This document shows, one piece after another, positions 1-10,959 of a DNA stretch of 10,959 bases (its first letter is position 1; every line of letters starts with the position of its first letter). Below the pieces are notes generated by a model. That model was not told where the DNA came from, ran no database searches, and was given only the letters and a program-made list of their open reading frames with translations. The DNA is from Lachnospiraceae bacterium. GTDB lineage: Bacteria > Bacillota > Clostridia > Lachnospirales > Lachnospiraceae. The stretch is taken from the NCBI GenBank assembly GCA_021199395.1, contig JAJQIE010000340.1, forward strand, positions 1 to 10,959, written 5' to 3'. A program made the position numbers and the translations under genes.

Positions 1-1558
1 GCGAGGAATAATCTGTGATGATCAGGTCTGTGATGAACAGCAGATCATTCAGCTCGGTTTCTTCTGACAGATCCAATACCCGGTCTTTGTATTTATCCGG
101 AACCGGATGCGATTCCCGGACAAATGGATGATGCTTGATAATCAGGGCATATTCCTTGCCGACCGCGTCCATAAACTCGTCGACCTGAAATTTTTCCATC
201 GGATAATAGGAATCTTCCTTCACATCGCCGCGGAAGGTGGGCGCAAACATGATTACCTTTTTCCCCTGCAGCATCGGATACTGCTGATACAGACGCGCTC
301 TGGTCTGCTTCTTATAATCCTCATCGAAGAACACGTCGCTGCGCGGGATACCAGTCGGCACCACATTGGCAGTCGGGATACCAAAGCCCTCCGAATGGCA
401 GATCTGAACGTTCTTCGTGCTGACCGTCACATAATCATAATTGCGGTGCATCGCGGTGCGCTGCGGAGAACCCTTAGGCTTACCAAGTCTTGTGAACCCA
501 AATGTTTTAAAAGCTCCGCAGGCATGCCAGAGCTGGACTACCTTTGTCTCGTCTCTGACTGAAATATAATGCACATACGGCGTAAATTCATCCAGGACAA
601 TGACCTTGCTCGTCGCGCACAGCAGAGCAAAGCGATCCATTTCAGCCCGTGTCATATGAAAGAGATCCTTTGTGTTCAGATACATCTGAATATCCAGATT
701 CGGATCGTCCTTGATTTTTTCATAGACAAAAGCGAAATTGCCGGACAGCTCATCCCGCCTGACTGAGATAAAGGAGATCCTTCCGGGCTCTACAGCCTGA
801 TTTTTCTTCAGACGATTGTACACGCGGATCAGACGGCGCTTTTTCAGATTCGTGATTCGGTTATAGGCGACCTGTCTGGCGCTCCCAAGTGAAATCTTAT
901 GCTGGCTTAAATATTGCAGCCTGGCGTTCACATGAATAGCAAATTTTTCCAGAAGCGTCGTTGCATTCGACTGTTCCTTTCCTGCGTAGCCGACAATCCC
1001 GACGGTTGCCAGAAGTCCGTCGAACAGGAACCAGGGCAGCAGACACAGCGCCAGAATAAAAGACAGCCAGTGATAGATTTTGTTCAGCCTCCTTTTTAAC
1101 TTCCAGCCGCTATGTATTGTCTCAAACCGTTCCAGCTTCTTTTTCCAGTCCTCCTGATGGACAAACAGAAGAGAATGATCTTCAATCCTGCACTGGTATA
1201 CAAGCTCGTCCTGTTCAAAGATATCCGGAGTGATCGGGATTGGGATTTTTTCCTCATAATAATCATTATAAAGGACGTTAAAGTACATCCGAATGTCATT
1301 CCCTGAATTTCTGGATTTCCAGAACAACTGATCCAAAAGATAGGTGTATTCGCTGTGGAAGGTAAGCGTGTCCTCCACTTCCTCCTGCTCGAAACGGCGG
1401 ATCACCAGTGGAATCCTCCGATCCTCCAGTCCGTTGATAAAATGCAGGAGCACCTTCGGCTTGGAAAGAGGTCCGATATACGCAAACGCTCCGTCCACGA
1501 CAAAGCTGATTTTATTGGCCCTGATATGGATTTCTCTCACCTTCAGGCTGTAGTCCAT
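1..1558 (-). CDS. TagF-like CDP-polyol phosphotransferase, paralog 1 (3' end cut by window edge)
   Basis: Probable CDP-glycerol/CDP-ribitol-type glycerophosphotransferase that adds polyol phosphate units to a lipid-linked surface polymer at the inner face of the membrane. I translated 519 residues without a stop; comparison with the paralog at 8044-9747 predicts about 95 more beyond base 1. The start is an ATG preceded by AGGAGG seven bases away, and the N-terminus aligns with the paralog (MDYSL / MEYGL, then REIHIRA). The C-terminal half has the family motifs: LWHACGAFK near residue 345 with the presumed catalytic His, GIPRSD, FAPTFRG, IKHHPF and ITDYSS at the cut end. From residue 260 to 519 it aligns without gaps to the paralog at about 74% identity by hand count. 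Residues about 140-259 do not align and contain a hydrophobic stretch at roughly 164-193 absent from the paralog. It lies 125 bases after the epimerase gene, same strand. Acceptor and donor are unknown. Confidence 0.9.
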   Translation of the reverse strand, partial: MDYSLKVREIHIRANKISFVVDGAFAYIGPLSKPKVLLHFINGLEDRRIPLVIRRFEQEEVEDTLTFHSEYTYLLDQLFWKSRNSGNDIRMYFNVLYNDYYEEKIPIPITPDIFEQDELVYQCRIEDHSLLFVHQEDWKKKLERFETIHSGWKLKRRLNKIYHWLSFILALCLLPWFLFDGLLATVGIVGYAGKEQSNATTLLEKFAIHVNARLQYLSQHKISLGSARQVAYNRITNLKKRRLIRVYNRLKKNQAVEPGRISFISVRRDELSGNFAFVYEKIKDDPNLDIQMYLNTKDLFHMTRAEMDRFALLCATSKVIVLDEFTPYVHYISVRDETKVVQLWHACGAFKTFGFTRLGKPKGSPQRTAMHRNYDYVTVSTKNVQICHSEGFGIPTANVVPTGIPRSDVFFDEDYKKQTRARLYQQYPMLQGKKVIMFAPTFRGDVKEDSYYPMEKFQVDEFMDAVGKEYALIIKHHPFVRESHPVPDKYKDRVLDLSEETELNDLLFITDLIITDYSS

Positions 1559-1683
1559 TGCAAATCCTCCTGTGAGTTTTTAATTTTCTTTATTGCCGCT
1601 CGAATCCGACGAATATTTTCCAGTGTATACGGGCATGGAGAAAGCGACTGCCTGTCCGACCAGAATCCTGCTCGATCTGTCTG

Positions 1684-2409
1684 TCAGGCTTCGCCGTGAG
1701 GTCTGGTTCTCTGATACAGTGCTTCCAGATCTTTTTTGTCCCAGCCGATCGCCAGCCGTTTTGCTTTGATCAGCTCCCCCAGATCACCCTTCTGGAAAAT
1801 GCTTGACGTGCCGGCGACAAAGATATCCGCACCCTGTGCGTAGAGCTTTGCCGCATTCTCTACGGAGATATTGCCGTCCACTTCAATATCGACTTCCTGG
1901 TGTCCAAGCTCATCGAGCAGCCTTCGCACCCGGCCTGCCTTCTCGATCGTGTGGGGAACTATTTTCTGCCCTGCAAATCCGGGATTTACGTTCAGGACGA
2001 GCACTCCGGCAATATAATCAGCCACCTCCTCCAGCACCTGGATCGGCGTCCCCGGATTGATCGCGATCATCGGACGGACGCCCTTTTTTAGCAGATAATC
2101 GAGGCATCTCTGGATATGGCTGGTGCCTTCATAGTGGAGCGATACCTGCTCTCCCGGCTGGAAGTCAAACCATTTCAGCTTTTCCTCCGCGCGGTCTACC
2201 ATAAAGTGACAGTCAATCGTAATATCGGTCAGGCTGCGCAGCCTTTTGACGAAATCAGGCCCATATGCCAGATTGGGGACAAAGGTACCGTCCATGACGT
2301 CCACATGGAGGTACTCGATCCCGTATTTTTCAAATTCGCGAACGTAAGTCATTACCTGATCAAATCCCGCGCACATGACGGATGCCGCGATTTTTCCCTT
2401 GCGATCCAT
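1684..2409 (-). CDS. Ribulose-phosphate 3-epimerase superfamily protein, allulose-6-phosphate-epimerase-like
   Basis: TIM-barrel epimerase of 241 residues (family usually about 215-230) that should invert C3 of a ketose 5- or 6-phosphate in the cytoplasm. Visible hallmarks: S10 in the first strand, HVDVMDG with metal ligands H35 and D37, DCHFMV with H68, NPGFAGQ at 142-148 and IEVDG with D178, then the phosphate-binding VAGTSSIF. All four expected metal ligands are present. Several residues (SVMC at 10-13, DCH at 67-68, FAGQ, DGN rather than DGG, GTS) look closer to E. coli AlsE than to housekeeping Rpe, as I remember those sequences. I chose the ATG at 2409 because the homology starts just after it and a purine-rich AAGAGGA lies upstream, though 12 bases away is long. 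An in-frame ATG at 2505 lies inside a palindrome. Its place between the beta-helix gene and a TagF-like gene suggests it feeds a sugar phosphate into polymer synthesis rather than central metabolism. Confidence 0.9.
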   Translation of the reverse strand: MDRKGKIAASVMCAGFDQVMTYVREFEKYGIEYLHVDVMDGTFVPNLAYGPDFVKRLRSLTDITIDCHFMVDRAEEKLKWFDFQPGEQVSLHYEGTSHIQRCLDYLLKKGVRPMIAINPGTPIQVLEEVADYIAGVLVLNVNPGFAGQKIVPHTIEKAGRVRRLLDELGHQEVDIEVDGNISVENAAKLYAQGADIFVAGTSSIFQKGDLGELIKAKRLAIGWDKKDLEALYQRTRPHGEA

Positions 2410-2464
2410 AAATACTGCGTTTCCTCTTTCTTTCTTAATATAAACTCCTGTGCCCGCTTTGCGG

Positions 2465-2537
2465 GTAAAAGTCGTCCAATATTCATGCTCGTGCCATGCC
2501 TGCATGGCACGAGCACGTCTATCGACGGTACTTTTAC
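2465..2537. repeat. Two-tier palindromic element between beta-helix and epimerase genes
   Basis: An inner perfect inverted repeat occupies 2486-2515: 14-base arms (TGCTCGTGCCATGC and its complement) around two bases. An outer inverted repeat flanks it: GTAAAAGTCGTC at 2465-2476 against GACGGTACTTTTAC at 2524-2537, pairing 12 bases with a two-base bulge. A separate small hairpin, CCCGC-TTT-GCGGG, follows at 2453-2465. The element starts about 10 bases past the beta-helix stop codon. The inner stem is not followed by a T-run; the outer right arm in the leftward direction ends in CTTTTAC, so it is not a textbook terminator. It may protect a 3' end, mark processing, or weaken read-through into the epimerase gene. 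Confidence 0.75.
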
Positions 2538-2546
2538 AGCAGATTT

Positions 2547-5500
2547 TTACATGGTAGAATTCTTTGTGTTACCGGAATACGTGTTTTTGCCGACAGTGCC
2601 TGTTACCGTTGACGTCATATTGACCGCGATTTTCGACGACTTGATCGTATTTCCGGATATGGATACTTTACACTTTGTACCGTAGATTCCGGAGGTCGTT
2701 GAGGTACCCGTGATGGTGTTCCCGGTGACAGTAATCGTATAGGACGTTGTCAGAGGATTCAGGAATATCTGCGCGTCGGTCTTACACTTTGTGATCGTAT
2801 TTTCACTGATGGTCATATCGGACTTCAGAGAATTAATCGAGATTCCACGTCCCTTGCAGGTCTTGATCGTATTGCCGGAGATCGTCTTAATTTTGCTGGA
2901 AGCCTGTACAAAGATTCCATGGCTTTTCGCGCTGGTAATCGTATTGTTTTTAATGTTTGACAACGTGCTCTTCTTATCTACGCCAATCCCATATTTCCCT
3001 GCCGATGAGATCTTGTTGCTGCTGACAGTCGTCACCTTGCTGGAATCATAGACAAAGATGGCATTCGTGGCCGCGTCGGAGATCGTATTGCTCTTGATCG
3101 TAGTGACTGTGGATTTCTCCACATCAATGCCATATTTTCCGGCTGAGGTGATCTCATTCCCGCTGATGGTCGTCACTGTGCCGGAATTAAAGACATAGAT
3201 ACCGATCAGCTTAGGGCTGGAAATCGTATTTGTTTCAATCGCTTCTACCGTCGCCTTTTCTACGTCGATGCCGTACTTGCCCGCCGACTTGATTGTGTTT
3301 CCACTGATACTGCCGGTCACTTTACTGGAGTTGTAGACAAAAATACCATTTACCTTAGGGCTTGTGATCGTGTTGCTGGTGATGTTTTTGACCGTACCCT
3401 TTTCCAGAGCGATTCCGTAATTTCCGGCCTTACTGATCTTATTGCTGCTGATCGTTGTCACCTTGCCTGAGCTGACCACGTAAATACCGTTTGAGGTCGG
3501 GCTGGAGATCGTGTTGCTCTTGATGGCAGCAACGGTTGCCTTTTCTACGTCGATGCCATATTTTCCGGCTGACGAGATCTTGTTTTTGCTGATAGAGCCG
3601 GTCACCTTACTGGAGTTGTAGACAAAAATACCATTTACCTTGGGACTCGTGATCGTGTTGCTGGTGATGTTTTTGACCGTACCCTTTTCCAGAGCGATCC
3701 CGTAATTTTTGGCCTTACTGATCGTATTACTGCTGATTGTGGTTACGCTGCCTGAGCTGACCACGTAAATGCCGTTGGAAGCCGGGCTGGTAATTGTGTT
3801 GCTTTCAATGGTGGCAACGGTTGCTTTTTCTACGTCGATGCCATACTTCCCTGCTGACGAGATTTTGTTTTTGCTGATGGAGCCGGTCACCTTACTGGAG
3901 CTATAGACAAAAATACCATTTACCTTTGGACTCGTGATCGTGTTGCTGGTGATGTTTTTAACCGTACCTTTTTCCAGAGCGATCCCATAATTTCCGGCGC
4001 TGGAGATCTTGTTGCTGCTGATTGTAGTCACCTTTCCGGAATCAAACACATAAATGCCGTTGGTAGCCGAGCTGGAAATCGTGTTGCTTTTAATCGTGGT
4101 AACGGTCGCGTTTTCTACATCAATCCCGTATTTTCCTGCGGAAGTAATGGTGTTTCCCGTTATGCTGGACGCGGAGGAGCCGGAAAATACGTAAATCCCG
4201 TTGGTCTGTGCCTTTGTGATGGTATTATTTGTAATCGTATTGCCTGTGCTGTCCGTCGTCAGCTGAATCCCGTAATAAGCGGTATTGCTGCTCGATGATC
4301 CGGTATAGGTAATGCTGTTAGCAGTCACCGTTGAATTTCTCGTATCATACAGGCGGATTCCGTTGCTGGCGGTCTTAATCGTATTATTGGAAATAGTAAC
4401 GCCGCTGATATAGTAATTTCCGTTCGGAATCGGATCGCCGCCGCTGTCCTCGTCAATACCCTCGCTCTCATAAGAGGTTGAGAAGCCGCGCACCAGAATA
4501 GCCACCCCTTCATACGCGGCATACGGATCCGTGCCTTTGCAGGTGATAGTATTATTGGATATCACAATATTCTGGTTCGACGCGGGCGTCTGATAGCTGG
4601 TGGAGGAGGTCGCCGCAAGCCCGCCTTCCTTTGCCAGAGTAGACGACAGGAAGGTACCGGAATCATAGATGGAATATAGGACAATGCCGCGCGGCGCCGC
4701 CGCGCCGGATTCCGTGTTTGCGTTGATGGTATTATTGCTGATGGTGCAGTTGATCCAGTTCATGCCCTGGATGGTTGCGCTTTTACAGTTGGTAAAGGTA
4801 CAGCCGGTAATGCTGATCGTATTGACCGGATTGTTGAGCACGGTGGTGTGGCTGCCGATCCCTCGCGGAACATTTTTAAAGGTACAGTTTGTAATTGTGA
4901 TATTTTTGGTCGCAAGATCCTGATAGGTGTAGGATGGGAAATGCGACGCTTCCAGAATATCGATCTGGATTGCTTCATAGGCTTTGTTGCTTGTAGAGGT
5001 AAGCGTCTGATCCTGGAAAATACATCCTGAGATGGTTACGCCATTGACGCCGGCGATTTCCATCAGATGCGCATTCTTTGCGTTCTTTAACGTACAGTTT
5101 TTAATGGTAAGGTTTGACGTATGCGCGGCTTTCATCAGGGTATTGCTGTTCCCGTTTTCGTTCCAGATACCGCCCTCAATGATGATATTTTCATAGCAAT
5201 AGCCATTGTGCGTCGCGCCCATATCCGTAGACGCGCCGACCATGATCATATTCGCCTCACGCTTGGATTCCTGCTTCAGCGTGACTCCGCTTGTCACATA
5301 CAGCCAGGTATTGCTGTAGATGCGAAGGCTGGCGTCCAGCGTATAGGTATAGCTGGAGCTGCCGGAGGGAAGCGGGATCACTACCTTATAAGGGTTACTG
5401 CTGGTAGCGTTGTCTCTGGCTTCATCCAGCGCGTCCTGAATCGCGGAGCTGTTGTTCGCTTTGATATCCGACGCGGACACTTTGATGACTGTATATCCAT

Positions 5501-5966
5501 CCTCGGAGACAGTCGCTATCGCATCCTCTTCGACAGAGGCTTCAGCGATCTCCGGGTCATCGACGGATTCGACAGACGCGATGGAGATCCCTGTATCGAG
5601 AGCGTCCTGCGCCTCGTCCGTTTCGACTACAGCTATGCCAGAAGCTTCCGTCTCTGCCGTGGTTTCTTCAACGGCGTTTTCAGCTTCGTCTGTAATTTCT
5701 GCGACCACAGCTTCTGTCTCCGCGACTGTGGCTTCAGCAGCAGTCGTCGCATCTAATACTTCGACGTCTTCAATCAGAGAACCTGAGCCGTCCGTATTCC
5801 CTTCTGCACCGGAAGCATCCGCAGCGGACGTATCTTCCTCCGGCTCTACGATGAGGACATCATCGGCCACGACTTCGGCGGCTTCTGCGGTAACCACCGT
5901 ATTCATACCGACGGTGGGCGATAGCATCGCGCATGCAAGCAACAGTGACATAAACTTCCGTTTCAT
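2547..5966 (-). CDS. Secreted right-handed parallel beta-helix repeat protein (1139 aa)
   Basis: Large exported protein. Residues 1-29 form a signal peptide (KRK, hydrophobic core, then AEA for cleavage before about residue 30). Residues about 31-155 are a low-complexity acidic linker rich in Ala, Glu, Thr and Val. From about 158 a pectin-lyase-fold region begins (AIQDALDEA, VVIPLP, NIIIEGGIWNENGN at 260-273, EAIQIDILEA at 331-340), recalling glycoside hydrolase 28 and polysaccharide lyase N-terminal coils. From about 520 to the end it is built of NosD/PbH1-type coils of 23-24 residues with the signature NTI..A..GI.V. No LPXTG motif, C-terminal membrane helix, SLH or choline-binding repeat is visible, so how it stays on the cell is unclear. 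I cannot point to convincing catalytic residues; it could bind, process or scaffold a surface polysaccharide, or act as an adhesin. The start has AAGGAGG five bases upstream and its own promoter. The gene splits two groups of polymer-synthesis genes. Confidence 0.9.
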   Translation of the reverse strand: MKRKFMSLLLACAMLSPTVGMNTVVTAEAAEVVADDVLIVEPEEDTSAADASGAEGNTDGSGSLIEDVEVLDATTAAEATVAETEAVVAEITDEAENAVEETTAETEASGIAVVETDEAQDALDTGISIASVESVDDPEIAEASVEEDAIATVSEDGYTVIKVSASDIKANNSSAIQDALDEARDNATSSNPYKVVIPLPSGSSSYTYTLDASLRIYSNTWLYVTSGVTLKQESKREANMIMVGASTDMGATHNGYCYENIIIEGGIWNENGNSNTLMKAAHTSNLTIKNCTLKNAKNAHLMEIAGVNGVTISGCIFQDQTLTSTSNKAYEAIQIDILEASHFPSYTYQDLATKNITITNCTFKNVPRGIGSHTTVLNNPVNTISITGCTFTNCKSATIQGMNWINCTISNNTINANTESGAAAPRGIVLYSIYDSGTFLSSTLAKEGGLAATSSTSYQTPASNQNIVISNNTITCKGTDPYAAYEGVAILVRGFSTSYESEGIDEDSGGDPIPNGNYYISGVTISNNTIKTASNGIRLYDTRNSTVTANSITYTGSSSSNTAYYGIQLTTDSTGNTITNNTITKAQTNGIYVFSGSSASSITGNTITSAGKYGIDVENATVTTIKSNTISSSATNGIYVFDSGKVTTISSNKISSAGNYGIALEKGTVKNITSNTITSPKVNGIFVYSSSKVTGSISKNKISSAGKYGIDVEKATVATIESNTITSPASNGIYVVSSGSVTTISSNTISKAKNYGIALEKGTVKNITSNTITSPKVNGIFVYNSSKVTGSISKNKISSAGKYGIDVEKATVAAIKSNTISSPTSNGIYVVSSGKVTTISSNKISKAGNYGIALEKGTVKNITSNTITSPKVNGIFVYNSSKVTGSISGNTIKSAGKYGIDVEKATVEAIETNTISSPKLIGIYVFNSGTVTTISGNEITSAGKYGIDVEKSTVTTIKSNTISDAATNAIFVYDSSKVTTVSSNKISSAGKYGIGVDKKSTLSNIKNNTITSAKSHGIFVQASSKIKTISGNTIKTCKGRGISINSLKSDMTISENTITKCKTDAQIFLNPLTTSYTITVTGNTITGTSTTSGIYGTKCKVSISGNTIKSSKIAVNMTSTVTGTVGKNTYSGNTKNSTM
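3012..4148 (-). repeat. Tandem 95-residue (285 bp) repeat array inside the beta-helix gene
   Basis: Residues 607-701, 702-796 and 797-891 are three head-to-tail copies of a 95-residue unit. They are followed by half-units at 892-938 and 939-985 (47 residues each) and a degenerate one after that. Each full unit holds four coils, for example AGKYGIDVEKATV, SNGIYVVSSG, NYGIALEKGTVKNITSN and KVNGIFVYNSSKVTGSIS. At DNA level the spacing is exactly 285 bases (the same CTGGTGATG begins at 3376, 3661 and 3946), and a stretch of about 105 bases around the GIALEKGTVKNI coil differs at only about five positions between neighbouring copies. Confidence 0.9.
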
Positions 5967-5984
5967 AAGAACCTCCTTATTGTG

Positions 5985-6013
5985 TGTATATAGTGTGTAA
6001 TAAATATTGTAAA
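5985..6013 (-). promoter_or_regulatory. Candidate sigma-A promoter of the beta-helix gene
   Basis: On the minus strand TTTACA (6008-6013) is followed after 17 bases by TATACA (5985-5990). Five of six -35 bases and four of six -10 bases match consensus. The predicted transcript would start only about 15 bases before the AAGGAGG ribosome site at 5972-5978, giving a very short leader. An AT-rich palindrome lies directly upstream of the -35 box. Confidence 0.5.
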
Positions 6014-6026
6014 CGACAGTAATCGT

Positions 6027-6073
6027 TTTTTATCATATAGGAAAGTTCTCCGAACTTCCCTACATGATAAAAA
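6027..6073. repeat. Imperfect palindrome upstream of the beta-helix promoter
   Basis: TATCATATAGGAAAGTTC at 6031-6048 pairs with GAACTTCCCTACATGATA at 6052-6069 across a three-base loop. The only two non-Watson-Crick positions would be G-U in RNA, and the pairing extends four more A-T pairs outward. The T-run lies before the stem and the A-run after it on both strands, so this is not a normal terminator. Its position about 14 bases upstream of the candidate -35 box makes it a possible operator. Confidence 0.6.
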
Positions 6074-6078
6074 TTTAT

Positions 6079-6128
6079 GCGCACGAATGCGTATGGAATT
6101 TTATTGCTTCGCAATACGCATTCGGCGC
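6079..6128. repeat. Inverted repeat with an overlapping alternative hairpin
   Basis: CGAATGCGTAT at 6084-6094 pairs with ATACGCATTCG at 6114-6124. Four further GCGC pairs follow outside a one-base bulge (6079-6082 with 6125-6128). Inside the loop, TATTGC-TTC-GCAATA at 6102-6116 forms a second hairpin that shares bases 6114-6116 with the long stem, so the two cannot form completely at once. Leftward, the long stem is followed by a T-rich stretch after several bases. Confidence 0.5.
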
Positions 6129-6131
6129 GGC

Positions 6132-6189
6132 AAAAAGTGTGCTTCTTGAGATTTGGTAAATTCGTGAGTGTGTGCGAAGCACACTTTTT
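6132..6189 (-). terminator. Stem-loop terminator after the dehydrogenase gene (likely bidirectional)
   Basis: AAAAAGTGTGCTTC at 6132-6145 is complementary to GAAGCACACTTTTT at 6176-6189, giving a nine-pair GC-containing stem plus an A/T run on each side. Read leftward, the stem ends in five T, 26 bases past the dehydrogenase stop codon at its near edge. The 30-base loop is long for an intrinsic terminator. One arm can instead fold locally as GTGTGC-GAA-GCACAC (6170-6184), which would compete with the long stem. Confidence 0.65.
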
Positions 6190-6214
6190 TATGTCTTTTT
6201 TCTCTCATTTCGTT

Positions 6215-7261
6215 TTATATCTCAAACATTACCTTCAGGCTGAACTGGCTGCTGTCGCGCACACACGCCATGGCGGCCTCATATTCTGAAAGCGGGAAGG
6301 TCTGCGTCACCAGCGATGAGAATGCGTCCGGACTGGCTGCCATGAGGGAAAGCGCGTCCTGCCAGTCGTTCACCTCTGTATTGTAGCTGGAGTTCCAGGT
6401 TCCCTTCACCGTAATCTGCTGTCGCAGGATTTTCCAGTAGGTGTTTTTTTCGAAGGTCATGTCGCCCTCCGGATTTCCCACCAGGACGACCGTGCCAAAG
6501 GTACCGCAGGCTTCCACGGCATTCCCCGCGGTCGAGGCTTTGCCGACACACTCAAACACGATGTCCGCGCCCTCTCCGTCAAGCTGCGCCTTTACCTGTG
6601 CCTCCACGTCTCCCTCGCGGGTGTTTACAGTCCCATAGCCGAGCTTTCCGGCAAATTCCAGCTTTGCACTGCTCCTTCCGCAGACAATGACCCTTGAAGC
6701 GCCCTGATTTGCAGCGAAGGCGGCAATCAGAAAGGCAATGGTCCCGGCACCCACGACCGCCACAGTCCGCCCTTTTACCTGACCGGCGACATGGAGCGCG
6801 TGCAGGCTGACCGCGGATGGCTCGCAAAGCGCTGCGGTCTTATAATCCAGACTTTTATCGAAAAGCACGAGATTCCAGACCGGTACCGCGAGATACTGAG
6901 CGAAGCCTCCGTCACAGCGGGAACCAAAATAATTGTAATGCCTGCACTGGGCATACTGGCCCTTTGCGCACGGCTCACATTCCCGGCAGGGAAGGAGCGG
7001 AAATACCGCAGCCCGTTTGCCGAGCAGCTTTGGATCGACGCCTTCTCCGAGCATCGCGATCTGCCCGGCGAACTCATGCCCCGGAATGGTGGGAAAATGG
7101 TATGTCCCGGTCTTATAGATGCGGGGAATGTCGCTCGAACAGATCCCGCAGGCCTTTATCTGCAAAAGCACCTCGCCCGGTTCCGGTTCGGGCATATCTG
7201 TCTGTTCATATCTCAGATCGCCAATGCCATGAAGCACCAGCGCGTTCATTACAAAGCTCAT
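6215..7261 (-). CDS. Zinc-dependent medium-chain dehydrogenase, galactitol-1-phosphate-5-dehydrogenase-like; probable polyol-phosphate-forming reductase
   Basis: A 348-residue cytoplasmic oxidoreductase. An N-terminal GroES-like domain carries catalytic zinc ligands C41 (GICSSD), H62-E63 (GHEF) and E147, and four structural-zinc cysteines C92, C95, C98 and C106. The nucleotide-binding fold has GAGTIA at 171-176, where the last Gly of the usual GxGxxG is Ala. The flow of motifs (SDIPRIYK.G, FPLLPC, FGSRCDGGFA) resembles E. coli GatD far more than S. aureus TarJ, as I remember them. At the end of the second Rossmann strand, where GatD has an Asp, this protein has G195-R196, a pattern typical of NADP-binding enzymes. 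The start at 7261 follows AGAAGGAG by eight bases; an in-frame ATG at 7285 overlaps the previous gene and lacks this site. It lies 20 bases after the cytidylyltransferase gene, so it most likely supplies the polyol phosphate that enzyme activates. Substrate (pentulose or hexulose phosphate) is not determined by sequence. Confidence 0.88.
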   Translation of the reverse strand: MSFVMNALVLHGIGDLRYEQTDMPEPEPGEVLLQIKACGICSSDIPRIYKTGTYHFPTIPGHEFAGQIAMLGEGVDPKLLGKRAAVFPLLPCRECEPCAKGQYAQCRHYNYFGSRCDGGFAQYLAVPVWNLVLFDKSLDYKTAALCEPSAVSLHALHVAGQVKGRTVAVVGAGTIAFLIAAFAANQGASRVIVCGRSSAKLEFAGKLGYGTVNTREGDVEAQVKAQLDGEGADIVFECVGKASTAGNAVEACGTFGTVVLVGNPEGDMTFEKNTYWKILRQQITVKGTWNSSYNTEVNDWQDALSLMAASPDAFSSLVTQTFPLSEYEAAMACVRDSSQFSLKVMFEI

Positions 7262-7281
7262 ACTGCAATCTCCTTCTGATG

Positions 7282-8001
7282 TCAATCCGTTTTCCGGTTC
7301 CGGATGATGTTTTCTGCGATCAGCAGGTCGCTGTCCGTCGTAATTTTAAAATTGATCGTATCGCCCCTGACCATGTGCAGGGTAACTCCGTTTAGCGTAC
7401 AGATCTGGGAGGTGCCTGTAATCACTGCCTTCTGCTCCTCGGACAGGGCGGCCTGCATGTCCAGAAACTGCTTCAGCCGGAAGCTGTCGGGCGCCTGCCC
7501 GTGGTAAACGATGCTTCTCTTTGGGATTTCCGATACCTCATTTCCATCATCTGAGTGGAGAATCGTATCGCTGGCCGGAACCGCGGCGACCACCGCGCCG
7601 TATTTTGCGGCGCTGTCAATACTGTCGTTTAAAATCTGCTCTGTGACGAACGGGCGCGCCGCGTCGTGAATGACAATCACATCCTCCTCTCCGACGGGAT
7701 GATCCCGGCAGATCGCGTCTGTCACATTGCGGATCGAATCGAGACGCTCCTTTCCGCCTTCCGTCAGCCGCAGCCGACGCGCCTCCTGTCGGGAAAAGCC
7801 TTCCTCGACCAGCCTTTCCATGTAGTCCATCCAGTCATGGTGAACCGCGATATAGATCTTGTCAAAGCGTGCGACCTTCAGCATATGCTCCATTGTATAC
7901 GCAATGACCGGTTTTCCTTCCAGTTCAATAAATTGCTTTGGGATGGAAGAGGACTTCACCCTGCTCCCGGTTCCTCCGGCCAGTATTACGCCATATATCA
8001 T
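7282..8001 (-). CDS. TarI/IspD-family cytidylyltransferase (probable CDP-polyol pyrophosphorylase)
   Basis: A 239-residue enzyme that joins CTP and an alditol (or methylerythritol) phosphate to give a CDP-alcohol and pyrophosphate. Family motifs are in order: LAGGTGSR at 7-14, PKQF at 21-24, GGKERLDS at 82-89, HDAARPF at 112-118 and GDTINFKITT at 213-222. Length is normal for the family. Details such as MIYGVILAGG, PKQFIELEGKPVI and the FDKIYIA segment are closer to TarI than to IspD by memory. Its operon position between a TagF-like gene and a reductase supports a polymer role, so the common automatic label of methylerythritol-phosphate cytidylyltransferase is probably misleading here. The start codon follows a modest GAGAGGGA by about eight bases, 42 bases after the upstream gene. 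Whether the substrate is ribitol-, arabinitol- or a hexitol-phosphate cannot be read from the sequence. Confidence 0.9.
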   Translation of the reverse strand: MIYGVILAGGTGSRVKSSSIPKQFIELEGKPVIAYTMEHMLKVARFDKIYIAVHHDWMDYMERLVEEGFSRQEARRLRLTEGGKERLDSIRNVTDAICRDHPVGEEDVIVIHDAARPFVTEQILNDSIDSAAKYGAVVAAVPASDTILHSDDGNEVSEIPKRSIVYHGQAPDSFRLKQFLDMQAALSEEQKAVITGTSQICTLNGVTLHMVRGDTINFKITTDSDLLIAENIIRNRKTD

Positions 8002-8043
8002 AGCTTAATCCCTCTCTGCATTTCTGTTTATTATTATAGTAAA

Positions 8044-9747
8044 TCACTGATATCCCGGCTCTATTCCCATCGCCTGGTACAAAAGAGCGACGACCCGATC
8101 TGTGGAATGTCCGTCAAAGTCATCAAAAAATCTTTTCTTAAACGCACCCAGCCGGTCAACGGCAAAATCCCGGTTCACGACCGCGCGCTCCAGCTCTTCC
8201 TGCGTATAAAAAAACTGTCCGGGCACAAAGGATTCAAAATCAAAATAAAAATCCCGCTCGGAAATATATTCCTCCAGATCGAAGGTATAAAACAGCATTG
8301 GAATATCCAGAAGCGAGGCCTCAAAAACCAGAGAAGAATAATCGGTAATGATCAGATCTGCGAGAAACAGCAGGTCATTTAACTCTGTCTCCGCTGAGAG
8401 ATCCAGCACCCGTTCTCTGTAAGCTTCCGGGACGGGATGAACCGCGCGGACAAACGGATGATGCTTGATCAGCAGGACGTATTCTTCTCCGACAGCATCC
8501 ATAAAAGAGCCGACCTGAAAGCGTTCCATCGGATAATACGCGTCGTCTCTGTCATGCCCCCGGAATGTGGGCGCAAATAAAATCACCCTCCGCCCCTGAA
8601 GAAGCGGATATTTCTCATACAGGCGGCGACGCGTCCGTGTCCGATAGTCCCTGTCAAAGAAGATATCCGTGCGCGGAATACCGGTCGGCACAACATTCGC
8701 CGTCGGGACGCCGAACCCTTCTGAATGACACATACGGACATTTCCGGTGCTCACGGTCACATAATCATAATTCCTGTGAAGCGCGGTCTTCTGCGAAGGG
8801 GCTTTCGGCTTCCCCAGACGCGAAAAGCCAAAGGTCTTAAACGCCCCGCACGCGTGCCAGAGCTGAACCACCCTCGTATCCGGGCCGATGGCGATATAAT
8901 GCACAAATGGCGTGTACTCATCCAGCACGAGAACCCTGCTGGTCGCGCACAGAAGCGCCAGGCGGCTGATCTCCGCCCCGGACATGTGGTACAGATCCTT
9001 TTTGGTCAGATACATCTGGATATCCAGTCGGTCATCCTGTGCAATTTTATTGTATACAAACGCAAAATTTCCGGATAATTCTGTCCGCCTCGCTGAGATA
9101 AAGGAAATTCTCTCCGGCACGAGGGAATGCTCTTTTTGCATCCGGCTGTAAGCACGGAGCAGCTGCCCTCGCTTCCATGCGATCCACGGAATGCGGACGA
9201 GCCTCCTTCCATCCCGAAAAACGCTTCTGTGCTCGTCCAGAAACGAAAATGCCTTTTTTATATAAGCTCTGGATGCCTGCAGACCGGTGTTCCGGGAACC
9301 GGTATTTTGCTCTATGGAGGAAAGCGTTTTCTGCCAGCCCGGCTGATGCGCGATCCGCAGGGAATTCCCCTCTGCGTAAGCCTTATAGACCAGGCCGTCC
9401 TGCTCCAGAACGTCGGGGCCGATGCTTACGGAAGCTTTTTCTTCATACTCATCCACATAGAGGAGGTTTACATACATCCGGATATCATTTCCGGAATTTT
9501 TTGACTTCCAGAACAGATAGTCCAGGAGGTAAGTGTAATCGCTGTGGAAGACCAGCTTTCGCGTCTTATCATCCCGCCGGAACTCTGAGATGACCAGCGG
9601 AATCCTGCGATCCTCCTCTCCATTGAAAAAATGCAGGATCACCTTTGGACGGGAGAGCGCGCTAACAAAATGAAATTCGCCGTCCACGACAAAGCGGATC
9701 CTGGCTGCCCTGATGTGAATTTCCCTGAAGAAAAGACCGTATTCCAT
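8044..9747 (-). CDS. TagF-like CDP-polyol phosphotransferase, paralog 2
   Basis: Complete 567-residue paralog of the gene at the left edge. Residues 1-139 form the N-terminal domain (REIHIRA, LLDYLFWKSKNSGNDIRMY) and align without gaps with paralog 1. Residues about 140-212 are a basic, helix-prone linker with no long hydrophobic run. Residues 213-567 are the GT-B-like catalytic part with LWHACGAFK (H298), GIPRTD, FAPTFRG, IKHHPF and ITDYSS (467-472). It probably extends or starts a polyol-phosphate chain on a lipid carrier, using the CDP-polyol made by the next genes. The start is supported by alignment to paralog 1 rather than by its ribosome site: AGGTGA abuts the ATG and GAGGAA is 11 bases away. 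It is the first gene of the leftward operon, with a perfect TATAAT promoter ahead. Confidence 0.92.
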   Translation of the reverse strand: MEYGLFFREIHIRAARIRFVVDGEFHFVSALSRPKVILHFFNGEEDRRIPLVISEFRRDDKTRKLVFHSDYTYLLDYLFWKSKNSGNDIRMYVNLLYVDEYEEKASVSIGPDVLEQDGLVYKAYAEGNSLRIAHQPGWQKTLSSIEQNTGSRNTGLQASRAYIKKAFSFLDEHRSVFRDGRRLVRIPWIAWKRGQLLRAYSRMQKEHSLVPERISFISARRTELSGNFAFVYNKIAQDDRLDIQMYLTKKDLYHMSGAEISRLALLCATSRVLVLDEYTPFVHYIAIGPDTRVVQLWHACGAFKTFGFSRLGKPKAPSQKTALHRNYDYVTVSTGNVRMCHSEGFGVPTANVVPTGIPRTDIFFDRDYRTRTRRRLYEKYPLLQGRRVILFAPTFRGHDRDDAYYPMERFQVGSFMDAVGEEYVLLIKHHPFVRAVHPVPEAYRERVLDLSAETELNDLLFLADLIITDYSSLVFEASLLDIPMLFYTFDLEEYISERDFYFDFESFVPGQFFYTQEELERAVVNRDFAVDRLGAFKKRFFDDFDGHSTDRVVALLYQAMGIEPGYQ

Positions 9748-9780
9748 TCACCTGCTACTTCCTCTCGAATAGTCTTAGTC

Positions 9781-9809
9781 ATTATATCAATATGTACCCG
9801 GAAATTCAA
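9781..9809 (-). promoter_or_regulatory. Sigma-A promoter of the transferase-cytidylyltransferase-dehydrogenase operon
   Basis: On the minus strand TTGAAT (9804-9809) is followed after 17 bases by a perfect TATAAT (9781-9786). The predicted start would be near 9773, about 26 bases before the transferase ATG at 9747. The copy of GGCTTTGT at 9810-9817 (9810 is shared with no promoter box) sits directly upstream of the -35 box. Confidence 0.75.
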
Positions 9810-9827
9810 GGCTTTGTTAAACCATTC

Positions 9828-9856
9828 TTGTCACATAAGCGGCTTTGTGCTATCAT
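9828..9856 (+). promoter_or_regulatory. Sigma-A promoter of the rightward glycosyltransferase-like gene
   Basis: TTGTCA (9828-9833) is followed after 17 bases by TATCAT (9851-9856); each box matches consensus at five of six positions. It drives the gene starting at 9929 through a leader of roughly 65 bases. It is back to back with the leftward promoter, about 18 bases between the two -35 boxes, so one regulator could control both. Confidence 0.7.
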
Positions 9857-9928
9857 TACACCATAAAAGACCTGATTCGAAGATTATTTCTCACTCATCC
9901 GTTCAAGGTCTCACAGGAGGAATTAGAA

Positions 9929-10959
9929 ATGTATAAATTTACGATCATCGCGTATGCGGGAGAAAACTACAGCCCGGATCCGCTTTTTAAAAGCCTGCTC
10001 GCATTCCCTGACCCGGATCTGATTCAGCTGATTGTGACAGACGCGACTGCCGATGCGCTTTACAGAGTGTATTTTGAAGAGGCGGGAAGGACTGGCCGGA
10101 TAGCTGTCCGTTATCTTGCCTGTCCGGGGAAAAACATTGCCGAATGTTATAATCTGGCAATTCCGGAAATCAAAGGAGAGTACACAGCCTTTGTGGATAC
10201 CGACAGCGAATACTCCGATACCTGTCTGTCGCGCGTGCGCGTTGTGATCAACAGCCCCGAATTTACGGGGAAAAACTATATCTGTGTGATGCCGTATTTT
10301 GTCGGAACGGATGATGAGCCTCTTTTGTATAAAATCTGCCCGCGTAGCGGAGGGAGCAAAGACATCCGTAATAATCCCAGCCCTGTAATCCTCTGCCTGT
10401 ACGCGTATTTCATCCGGACGACTCTTGTGTGCGGTATGCGTTTCAGGGAGGACTGTCCCATCGACGCGCGCCAGATGTTTATTCTGGATCTGATGGAAAA
10501 GGAGACGGTCTATTATCTGGCGGGAAAGCAGTCTGTCTTTTACCGCCACGCGCTTGAGAACACAACTGCCTTTTTCACCGGGAGTCATGAGAAAGTCTGG
10601 TACACCGATACGCTGAAACACGTGTATCTTCCTTATATAAAAGAGCGCTACGAGCGGGGAGAGCTGACTTTGGAGCAGGAGGAGGCGATCCTGTACCTGA
10701 TCTATGCCAGATTTTCCTGTAACATGAATCAAAGCGACAAGAAGCTGCTGGATGAACAGGAGATTCGTGAATTTTATGAGATCGTCCATGAGCTCCTGCG
10801 CTATATCCATTACGACGTCATCGTCCAGAGAAAAAAGCTCGGTCATTTCACGCTTCCCGTCTGGCTGGTGTGGGATTTCATGAAAAATAAGGCAAGGCTC
10901 TGCGGCGACGCGGACGGGCTTGTCTTTTCCGGCGGCAGCATGCTCATGGACATAAATAA
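9929..10959 (+). CDS. GT-A family 2-like glycosyltransferase domain protein (3' end cut by window edge)
   Basis: An open frame of 343 residues continues past the right edge; no stop is seen. The start ATG has AGGAGG eight bases upstream and its own promoter. The N-terminal region fits a nucleotide-sugar-binding GT-A fold: a first strand MYKFTIIAY, GKNIAECYNLAI at 68-78, GEY at 83-85 and FVDTDSEY at 88-95, where D90-T-D92 would be the metal-binding DxD. Further on, RFREDCPID (171-179) resembles the F.ED element of family 2 enzymes. Residues after about 200 are less typical (helical, charged), so more domains may follow; related Clostridia have long proteins that join such a domain to a TagF-like domain, which is a possibility here and not shown. 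It probably decorates or starts the same surface polymer made by the divergent operon. Sugar donor and acceptor are unknown. Confidence 0.8.
   Translation, partial: MYKFTIIAYAGENYSPDPLFKSLLAFPDPDLIQLIVTDATADALYRVYFEEAGRTGRIAVRYLACPGKNIAECYNLAIPEIKGEYTAFVDTDSEYSDTCLSRVRVVINSPEFTGKNYICVMPYFVGTDDEPLLYKICPRSGGSKDIRNNPSPVILCLYAYFIRTTLVCGMRFREDCPIDARQMFILDLMEKETVYYLAGKQSVFYRHALENTTAFFTGSHEKVWYTDTLKHVYLPYIKERYERGELTLEQEEAILYLIYARFSCNMNQSDKKLLDEQEIREFYEIVHELLRYIHYDVIVQRKKLGHFTLPVWLVWDFMKNKARLCGDADGLVFSGGSMLMDIN

Follow-up and report, generated by a model that had tools for sequence, protein, structure and literature searches.

A conserved epimerase, reductase and cytidylyltransferase cassette in Lachnospiraceae, and its predicted role in supplying a CDP-hexitol for a teichoic-acid-like polymer

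A second epimerase in a probable polyol-phosphate polymer locus

Why should a probable locus for a polyol-phosphate surface polymer encode a protein of the ribulose-phosphate 3-epimerase family, and which alditol would it then activate? The question is raised by a 10,959-nucleotide stretch of DNA (contig JAJQIE010000340.1 of GenBank assembly GCA_021199395.1, positions 1 to 10,959 of the forward strand; hereafter the window) from a Lachnospiraceae bacterium whose genome assembly is 71.6% complete. We propose, at a probability of roughly 0.6, that the locus encodes a dedicated route from fructose-6-phosphate to a cytidine diphosphate (CDP)-hexitol for a teichoic-acid-like surface polymer. Protein families, linkage, paralogue status, loop length, a missing NAD-type Asp, a pocket signature and a gene fusion are facts at the level of sequence, and from these we infer every substrate named below.

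The named genes all lie on the minus strand as open reading frames (ORFs) with clear Pfam matches. From high to low coordinates they encode a TagF/TarL-type polyol-phosphate transferase of 567 residues (8044..9747; PF04464, Glyphos_transf, 242.6 bits), an IspD/TarI-family cytidylyltransferase of 239 residues (7282..8001; 146.3 bits in Pfam), a GatD-like zinc reductase of the medium-chain dehydrogenase/reductase (MDR) type (6215..7261; PF08240 and PF00107, ADH_N and ADH_zinc_N), a 241-residue ribulose-phosphate-3-epimerase-family protein with an AlsE-type loop (1684..2409; PF00834, 180.7 bits) and another TagF/TarL-type transferase (2..1558; PF04464, 175.1 bits), with 519 residues within the window and its frame open at the window end. 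The two transferases are 73% identical in DNA over 300 nucleotides, and both fail the NCBIfam TarL equivalog test (292 and 220 bits against a cut-off of 1000, the second protein being cut by the window end). A preliminary description of this DNA had treated positions 1684..9747 as the pathway locus, with an epimerase, a reductase, a cytidylyltransferase and two transferases. All five genes are present, but the second transferase lies outside that span and 3.4 kb of it is taken up by a beta-helix gene (2547..5966).

Linkage of the epimerase to GatD-type reductases

An epimerase-led scan of named genome contigs gave 17 loci, 13 of them at an identity of at least 74%. The order cytidylyltransferase, reductase, then a transferase, another ORF or nothing, then epimerase was found in 12 of these 13, and the contig of the thirteenth starts just before the transferase. 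Loci L016-L019, at 55–56% epimerase identity, have no cytidylyltransferase nearby.

A cytidylyltransferase-led search, independent of the epimerase, covered 120 genomes of the family and 391 of the class and yielded 106 stretches whose neighbouring genes were classed. An epimerase gene was present within 6 kb of the cytidylyltransferase gene in 9 of 16 cases with a GatD-type reductase, compared with 0 of 18 with TarJ (17 loci) and 2 of 74 with neither (GatD-type versus TarJ, Fisher 2e-4; the genomes compared are related, hence p values here and below overstate independence). The tally is per cytidylyltransferase gene, and the two next to the single TarJ of L060 count separately; L075 and L101, which the classing script did not take as cytidylyltransferase loci, stand outside it, and the 12 loci found via the epimerase (L003-L007, L009-L015) are within the count of 21 with GatD-type reductase and epimerase and excluded from the 9 of 16. 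Eight of the nine linked epimerases lie less than 3 kb away, and L153, where a long-loop epimerase lies 7.0 kb from the cytidylyltransferase, was counted as having none. L075, a locus from another family that was read by hand, encodes an 857-residue fusion of IspD and Glyphos_transf domains beside a reductase, an epimerase and an ATP-binding cassette (ABC) exporter.

The same association was seen at genome scale. A second PF00834 gene was detected in 15 of 16 GatD-type genomes versus none of 16 TarJ-only genomes, one of which had no PF00834 match at all, and where a GatD-type genome has no epimerase next to the cytidylyltransferase (seven cases), a second PF00834 gene lies elsewhere in six. 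Two or more PF00834 genes occur in 34 of 119 family genomes, namely 13 of 14 GatD-type genomes and 21 of the 105 others (p 1.4e-7). Judged by gene order and linkage, the epimerase, reductase and cytidylyltransferase genes are a cassette that is conserved within Lachnospiraceae and also outside the family. Roseburia faecis M72 (L009) carries it, and upstream are genes for an ABC exporter, for a LicD protein and for a PF02397 sugar transferase. A choline-binding-repeat protein (L009:12423-14219) is also encoded near the cassette in this strain.

The epimerase is a divergent paralogue

The window epimerase shares the fold and most conserved motifs of housekeeping Rpe. It differs in scoring below the rpe equivalog cut-off of TIGR01163 (199.9 versus 212.6 bits; 274.3 for the organism's own housekeeping Rpe and 212.4 for E. 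coli AlsE), in a longer loop after strand 8, in having DGN where Rpe has DGG and in being a second copy in the genome. The loop, GTSSIF (1795..1812, minus strand), was located by motif and alignment between a predicted strand at residues 196-199 and a helix starting at 210, and is one residue longer than that of Rpe. Together with GFAGQ it accounts for the AlsE-like residues to which the preliminary description had drawn attention, and these are real.

The longer loop was found in every cassette epimerase read, in eight unlinked second copies, and in the AlsE proteins of E. coli and E. raffinosus, whereas all 34 housekeeping Rpe proteins (12 from the window and linked genomes, 22 from comparison genomes) have the short form. 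Loops were read by motif, with alignment for 13 proteins, and the reading covered all second copies but one, from genome G076; two short-loop Rpe motifs end in Tyr and the long loop of L053 ends in Val. Chan and colleagues are said to have found in 2008 that the extra loop residue sets the preference for hexuloses versus pentuloses.

A phylogenetic tree placed 14 short-loop proteins on one side (support 100/97), with the window epimerase outside this housekeeping group, an outcome in favour of the preliminary description. The split was recovered at 95/90 after the diagnostic loop and everything downstream of it were removed and Listeria Rpe1 was omitted as a long branch. The tree used 12 of 120 listed proteins after four duplicate rows were dropped, and alignment A1 used 40 of the 120. 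By score, motif and tree, the window epimerase is a divergent paralogue of the Rpe family and not the housekeeping copy. With E. coli AlsE it shares the family and the long strand-8 loop, but it is not placed in the AlsE branch and scores 141 bits against the curated AlsE model, below the cut-off of 271 (428 bits for E. coli AlsE and 342 for the E. raffinosus protein).

A GatD-type reductase without the NAD-type aspartate

Among PDB entries the reductase matches E. coli GatD best (4a2c, 186 bits). In the alignment it keeps the four-Cys motif of a structural zinc and the Cys, His-Glu and Glu of a catalytic zinc, roles which we assume for these residues; TarJ is without the four Cys. From GatD, a galactitol-1-phosphate 5-dehydrogenase and its best-scoring family, it differs in falling far below the curated cut-off (215.6 bits, cut-off 550), in its separate branch and in having neither an NAD-type Asp nor a phosphotransferase system (PTS) cluster. 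NAD-dependent enzymes typically end their second Rossmann strand with an Asp, which NADP-dependent ones lack. The window reductase has CGRS(S) at this point in the alignment (6671..6682, minus strand). The Asp is present in four PTS-linked GatDs and absent from TarJ and from all GatD-type reductases beside a cytidylyltransferase that were compared, which suggests that cassette reductases use NADPH.

In a quick tree 21 TarJ rows stood apart (support 100), with the window reductase on the other side. The four PTS-linked GatD rows formed one group (94) and 15 TagF-linked cassette reductases a second (94); a third (97) held the reductases of loci with LicD or flagellin and of those without an epimerase, together with L061. 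Earlier assignments of the reductase as GatD-like, not TarJ-like, and as NADP-type are borne out, the latter by motif, and the cassette reductases separate from both TarJ and the PTS-linked GatDs, again in favour of the preliminary description.

An E. raffinosus plasmid (L069:5468-11073) encodes a mannose-type PTS, a GatD-like dehydrogenase, an SIS protein, a short-chain dehydrogenase/reductase (SDR) and the protein above the AlsE cut-off. Its GatD-like enzyme is the best plasmid match to the window reductase (41% identity). The cluster may be a catabolic mirror of the proposed route, leading from an alditol phosphate through allulose-6-phosphate to fructose-6-phosphate, and is a candidate for the breakdown of allitol or altritol.

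An altered cytidylyltransferase pocket

The cytidylyltransferase passes the NCBIfam subfamily model for D-ribitol-5-phosphate cytidylyltransferase (251 bits, cut-off 166), and its best PDB matches are 2vsh and 4jis. Its substrate pocket carries an altered signature, A170-P-D172, G196 and Q199 (7405..7494, minus strand), which aligns to T165, Q167, D190 and S193 of E. coli IspD, where T165 is presumably a substrate contact. Stated generally, [A/S/V]-P-[D/E] stands in place of T-P-Q, Gly in place of the conserved Asp that follows and Gln/Glu in place of Lys/Ser. This signature was read in 31 of the 32 cytidylyltransferases linked to a GatD-type reductase or an epimerase and in none of 98 others, and it recurs in both of the two separate clades of a quick tree in which most of the linked enzymes lie. 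The exception is L121, which combines an epimerase with an SDR-family reductase (PF01370) and has A-P-Q, then Asn and Glu.

The TarI-type pocket (T-P-Q, D, K) was present in all 17 TarJ-linked rows compared (13 loci and four references). The class of other rows numbers 63 and includes the TarJ-linked L092, L095 and L100, both L058 rows, four reference TarI copies and one empty row. At the position of IspD T165, Thr was found in 17 of 17 TarJ-linked rows and none of 32 GatD- or epimerase-linked rows. Of the 17 rows whose neighbour is an SDR, identified by motif scan only, 14 have Ala there, and theirs is the architecture assigned to CDP-6-fructose in the excerpted text of PMC10918830. We read the altered pocket as probable room for a sixth carbon. 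In three other loci (L077:1519-3249, L079:7866-9605 and L082:6913-8652) an IspD/TarI-like domain is joined in one protein to a domain of the HMGL type (PF00682, verified for L077), with a pocket signature of their own, TPS, G, Q.

A proposed route and its alternatives

The epimerase would act first, on D-fructose-6-phosphate, and invert it at C3. The product, D-allulose-6-phosphate, is the homologue of ribulose-5-phosphate with six carbons, and the NADPH-dependent GatD-like reductase would reduce it at C2 to D-allitol-6-phosphate, or to D-altritol-6-phosphate with the opposite facial preference. The hydride preference of TarJ and GatD gives allitol if the reductase shares it. The IspD/TarI-like enzyme with its altered pocket would then form the CDP-hexitol with CTP, although these two steps could swap, as in the Mnp and HS5 enzyme pairs described below. 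The two TagF/TarL-like transferases would add hexitol-phosphate units to a teichoic-acid-like polymer. Its export is predicted to fall to ABC exporters, whose genes adjoin some of the related loci.

From the protein families and linkage, the connection of the cassette to a CDP-polyol is well supported. The alditol probably has six carbons; its exact identity is a matter of guesswork, with allitol the most likely choice. Tentatively, and with the odds against it, CDP-allitol may feed a poly(allitol-phosphate) teichoic acid, the all-same-side six-carbon homologue of the ribitol polymer, while cassettes near LicD or flagellin genes place the same alditol phosphate on flagella.

The passage through allulose-6-phosphate, already suggested in the preliminary description, gains from linkage, from presence and absence of the paralogue, from the pocket signatures and from both trees. 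Fructose-6-phosphate, ribulose-5-phosphate and xylulose-5-phosphate come from housekeeping enzymes, hence a dedicated second epimerase would chiefly make sense for a ketose phosphate that the cell does not already produce. A precedent for biosynthetic conversion of fructose-6-phosphate to allulose-6-phosphate is AgmD of the angustmycin cluster, as given in the excerpted text of PMC8599513, a D-allulose-6-phosphate 3-epimerase that is likened to the window protein by family and proposed function and not by sequence comparison.

Several points weigh against a hexitol and in favour of a rare pentitol, which is unlikely in our view and yet the best of the alternatives. Here the epimerase would interconvert ribulose-5-phosphate and xylulose-5-phosphate, and the reductase would turn the latter into D-arabinitol-5-phosphate or xylitol-5-phosphate on the way to a CDP-pentitol. 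In its whole-sequence and fold scores the epimerase comes closer to Rpe than to AlsE, and a long strand-8 loop may not exclude pentuloses. A Listeria PTS operon has GatD-like enzymes together with rpe-annotated genes, one of which encodes a long-loop protein, and the copy directly beside a GatD-like gene there has the short loop. Because the whole-protein scores lean to Rpe, the case for the hexitol step is drawn from the loop, from the reasoning about a second paralogue and from the signatures seen in the reductase and the cytidylyltransferase. Against a pentitol, housekeeping Rpe is encoded elsewhere in all 11 genomes with a linked epimerase and in the window genome (12 of 12 checked) and would already supply xylulose-5-phosphate. 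The AlsE type of the loop, the absence of the TarI-type Thr from all the linked cytidylyltransferases and the Ala in its place in most rows with an SDR neighbour also argue against it.

Ordinary ribitol teichoic acid, with the GatD-like enzyme standing in for TarJ and the epimerase topping up ribulose-5-phosphate, is improbable. It would fit a cytidylyltransferase that passes the ribitol-5-phosphate model, and when transferases from the other cassette loci were scored against four references, TarL came first for 9 of 16. Ribulose-5-phosphate needs no second epimerase, however, TarJ-linked cytidylyltransferase genes are never accompanied by one in our tally, and the pocket residues are unlike those of every TarJ-linked row compared.

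Still less probable is a different hexulose pair, in which the epimerase interconverts D-tagatose-6-phosphate and D-sorbose-6-phosphate and the reductase yields a galactitol- or glucitol-type phosphate. E. coli GatD does work on the pair tagatose-6-phosphate and galactitol-1-phosphate, but galactitol would be reachable from tagatose-6-phosphate without a 3-epimerase, and no source of tagatose-6-phosphate or sorbose-6-phosphate was noticed by eye among the listed, partly annotated cassette neighbours. Finally, that the epimerase is a bystander from the catabolism of allulose or another sugar phosphate, beside a locus that makes a glycerol- or ribitol-phosphate polymer alone, is very improbable: the hairpin and beta-helix gene that separate reductase and epimerase in the window would allow it, as these two genes may be on separate transcripts, but the linkage persists when the gene order changes, in a different family and where the partner genes are fused, and epimerase presence tracks reductase type.

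Comparison with known CDP-alditol systems

Like the TarI-TarJ-TarL ribitol pathway (with S. epidermidis and Listeria loci as references), the window combines an IspD/TarI cytidylyltransferase, a reductase without the NAD-type Asp and a TagF/TarL transferase in one locus; it differs in a reductase from another MDR branch, an extra epimerase and the changed cytidylyltransferase pocket. According to the excerpted text of PMC10918830, Mnp1/Mnp2 of S. pneumoniae 35A lead to CDP-mannitol and HS5.18/HS5.17 of C. jejuni to CDP-6-D-glucitol. These pairs join PF01128 to PF01370 (HS5.17 is an SDR) and act directly on fructose-6-phosphate, with cytidylyl transfer first. They too pair an IspD-family enzyme with an NADPH reductase for a CDP-hexitol of surface polysaccharide, the window product being a prediction, but the window reductase is a zinc MDR, a 3-epimerase is added and the PF01128 and PF01370 pairing is not found there. 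The cassette is a variant of known CDP-alditol pathways and not a new kind of system.

In freely licensed literature, judged by title and the start of the abstract, no report of this gene cassette was found among the matches listed. No report of allitol or altritol in bacterial surface polymers was found among the matches listed either, which is weak evidence of novelty as only freely licensed literature was searched. One literature search returned CDP-ribitol and none of CDP-mannitol, CDP-arabinitol or CDP-glucitol among the matches listed. If the proposed route is true, it would bring a new activated alditol into the surface chemistry of Lachnospiraceae, a gut family that includes Roseburia faecis, would account for second 'ribulose-phosphate 3-epimerase' annotations in wall-polymer and flagellin loci, and would give the rare sugar allulose a biosynthetic use. 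The long strand-8 loop, the AP[DE]/G/[QE] pocket and a GatD-type reductase without the NAD Asp would then serve as markers for finding the pathway.

Cassettes in LicD and flagellin settings

Eight of the nine linked loci from the cytidylyltransferase-led search have no TagF-like gene within 6 kb. LicD (PF04991, by Pfam) is encoded beside the cassette in L132, L066 and L159, and also beside L113 and L121. Flagellin genes adjoin the cassette of L132 and that of L156, and one lies near L137, which has no epimerase; a CheA-like kinase (Pfam) is encoded beside L144; neither LicD nor flagellin was seen in the parts of L061 and L158 examined. The stretches with epimerase, cytidylyltransferase and GatD-type genes beside LicD or flagellin are L132:4959-10688, L066:567-5260, L159:4091-9151 and L156:6875-14796, with L137:5274-14541 as the counterpart without an epimerase. 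L121 (7424-12952) has an epimerase and a cytidylyltransferase followed by a PF01370 reductase replacing the MDR and by two weak TagF-like matches. From these gene neighbourhoods one may reasonably guess that flagellin is decorated with a polyol phosphate.

Gene layout and neighbouring features of the window

An inverted repeat 3' of the reductase gene (6027..6073, minus strand; 22-nucleotide arms, 91% complementary) is a possible end of a transcription unit, and a hairpin (2479..2522, minus strand; 21-nucleotide arms, 86% complementary) lies between the beta-helix and epimerase genes. With hairpins 3' of the reductase and 5' of the epimerase, three transcripts are possible in the window genome. 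A consensus scan, on which no conclusion rests, gave 9 promoter-like sites where 12.2 were expected and 20 terminator-like sites where 11.1 were expected. The reductase would start at ATG 7261 or 7249 (mechanical TTG start at 7285) and the epimerase at ATG 2409, which follows a purine-rich stretch (mechanical start at 2505).

A weak match to glycosyltransferase family 2 (20.5, below the Pfam cut-off of 23.3) was observed on the plus strand at 9845-10957. The beta-helix repeat protein (2547..5966, minus strand; 1139 residues; PF13229, 261 bits, and PF05048, 204.5 bits) has a signal-peptide-like start, judged by eye, and is a neighbour that is at most a candidate member of the pathway. ORFs matching it were also observed in L005, L011, L012 and L015.

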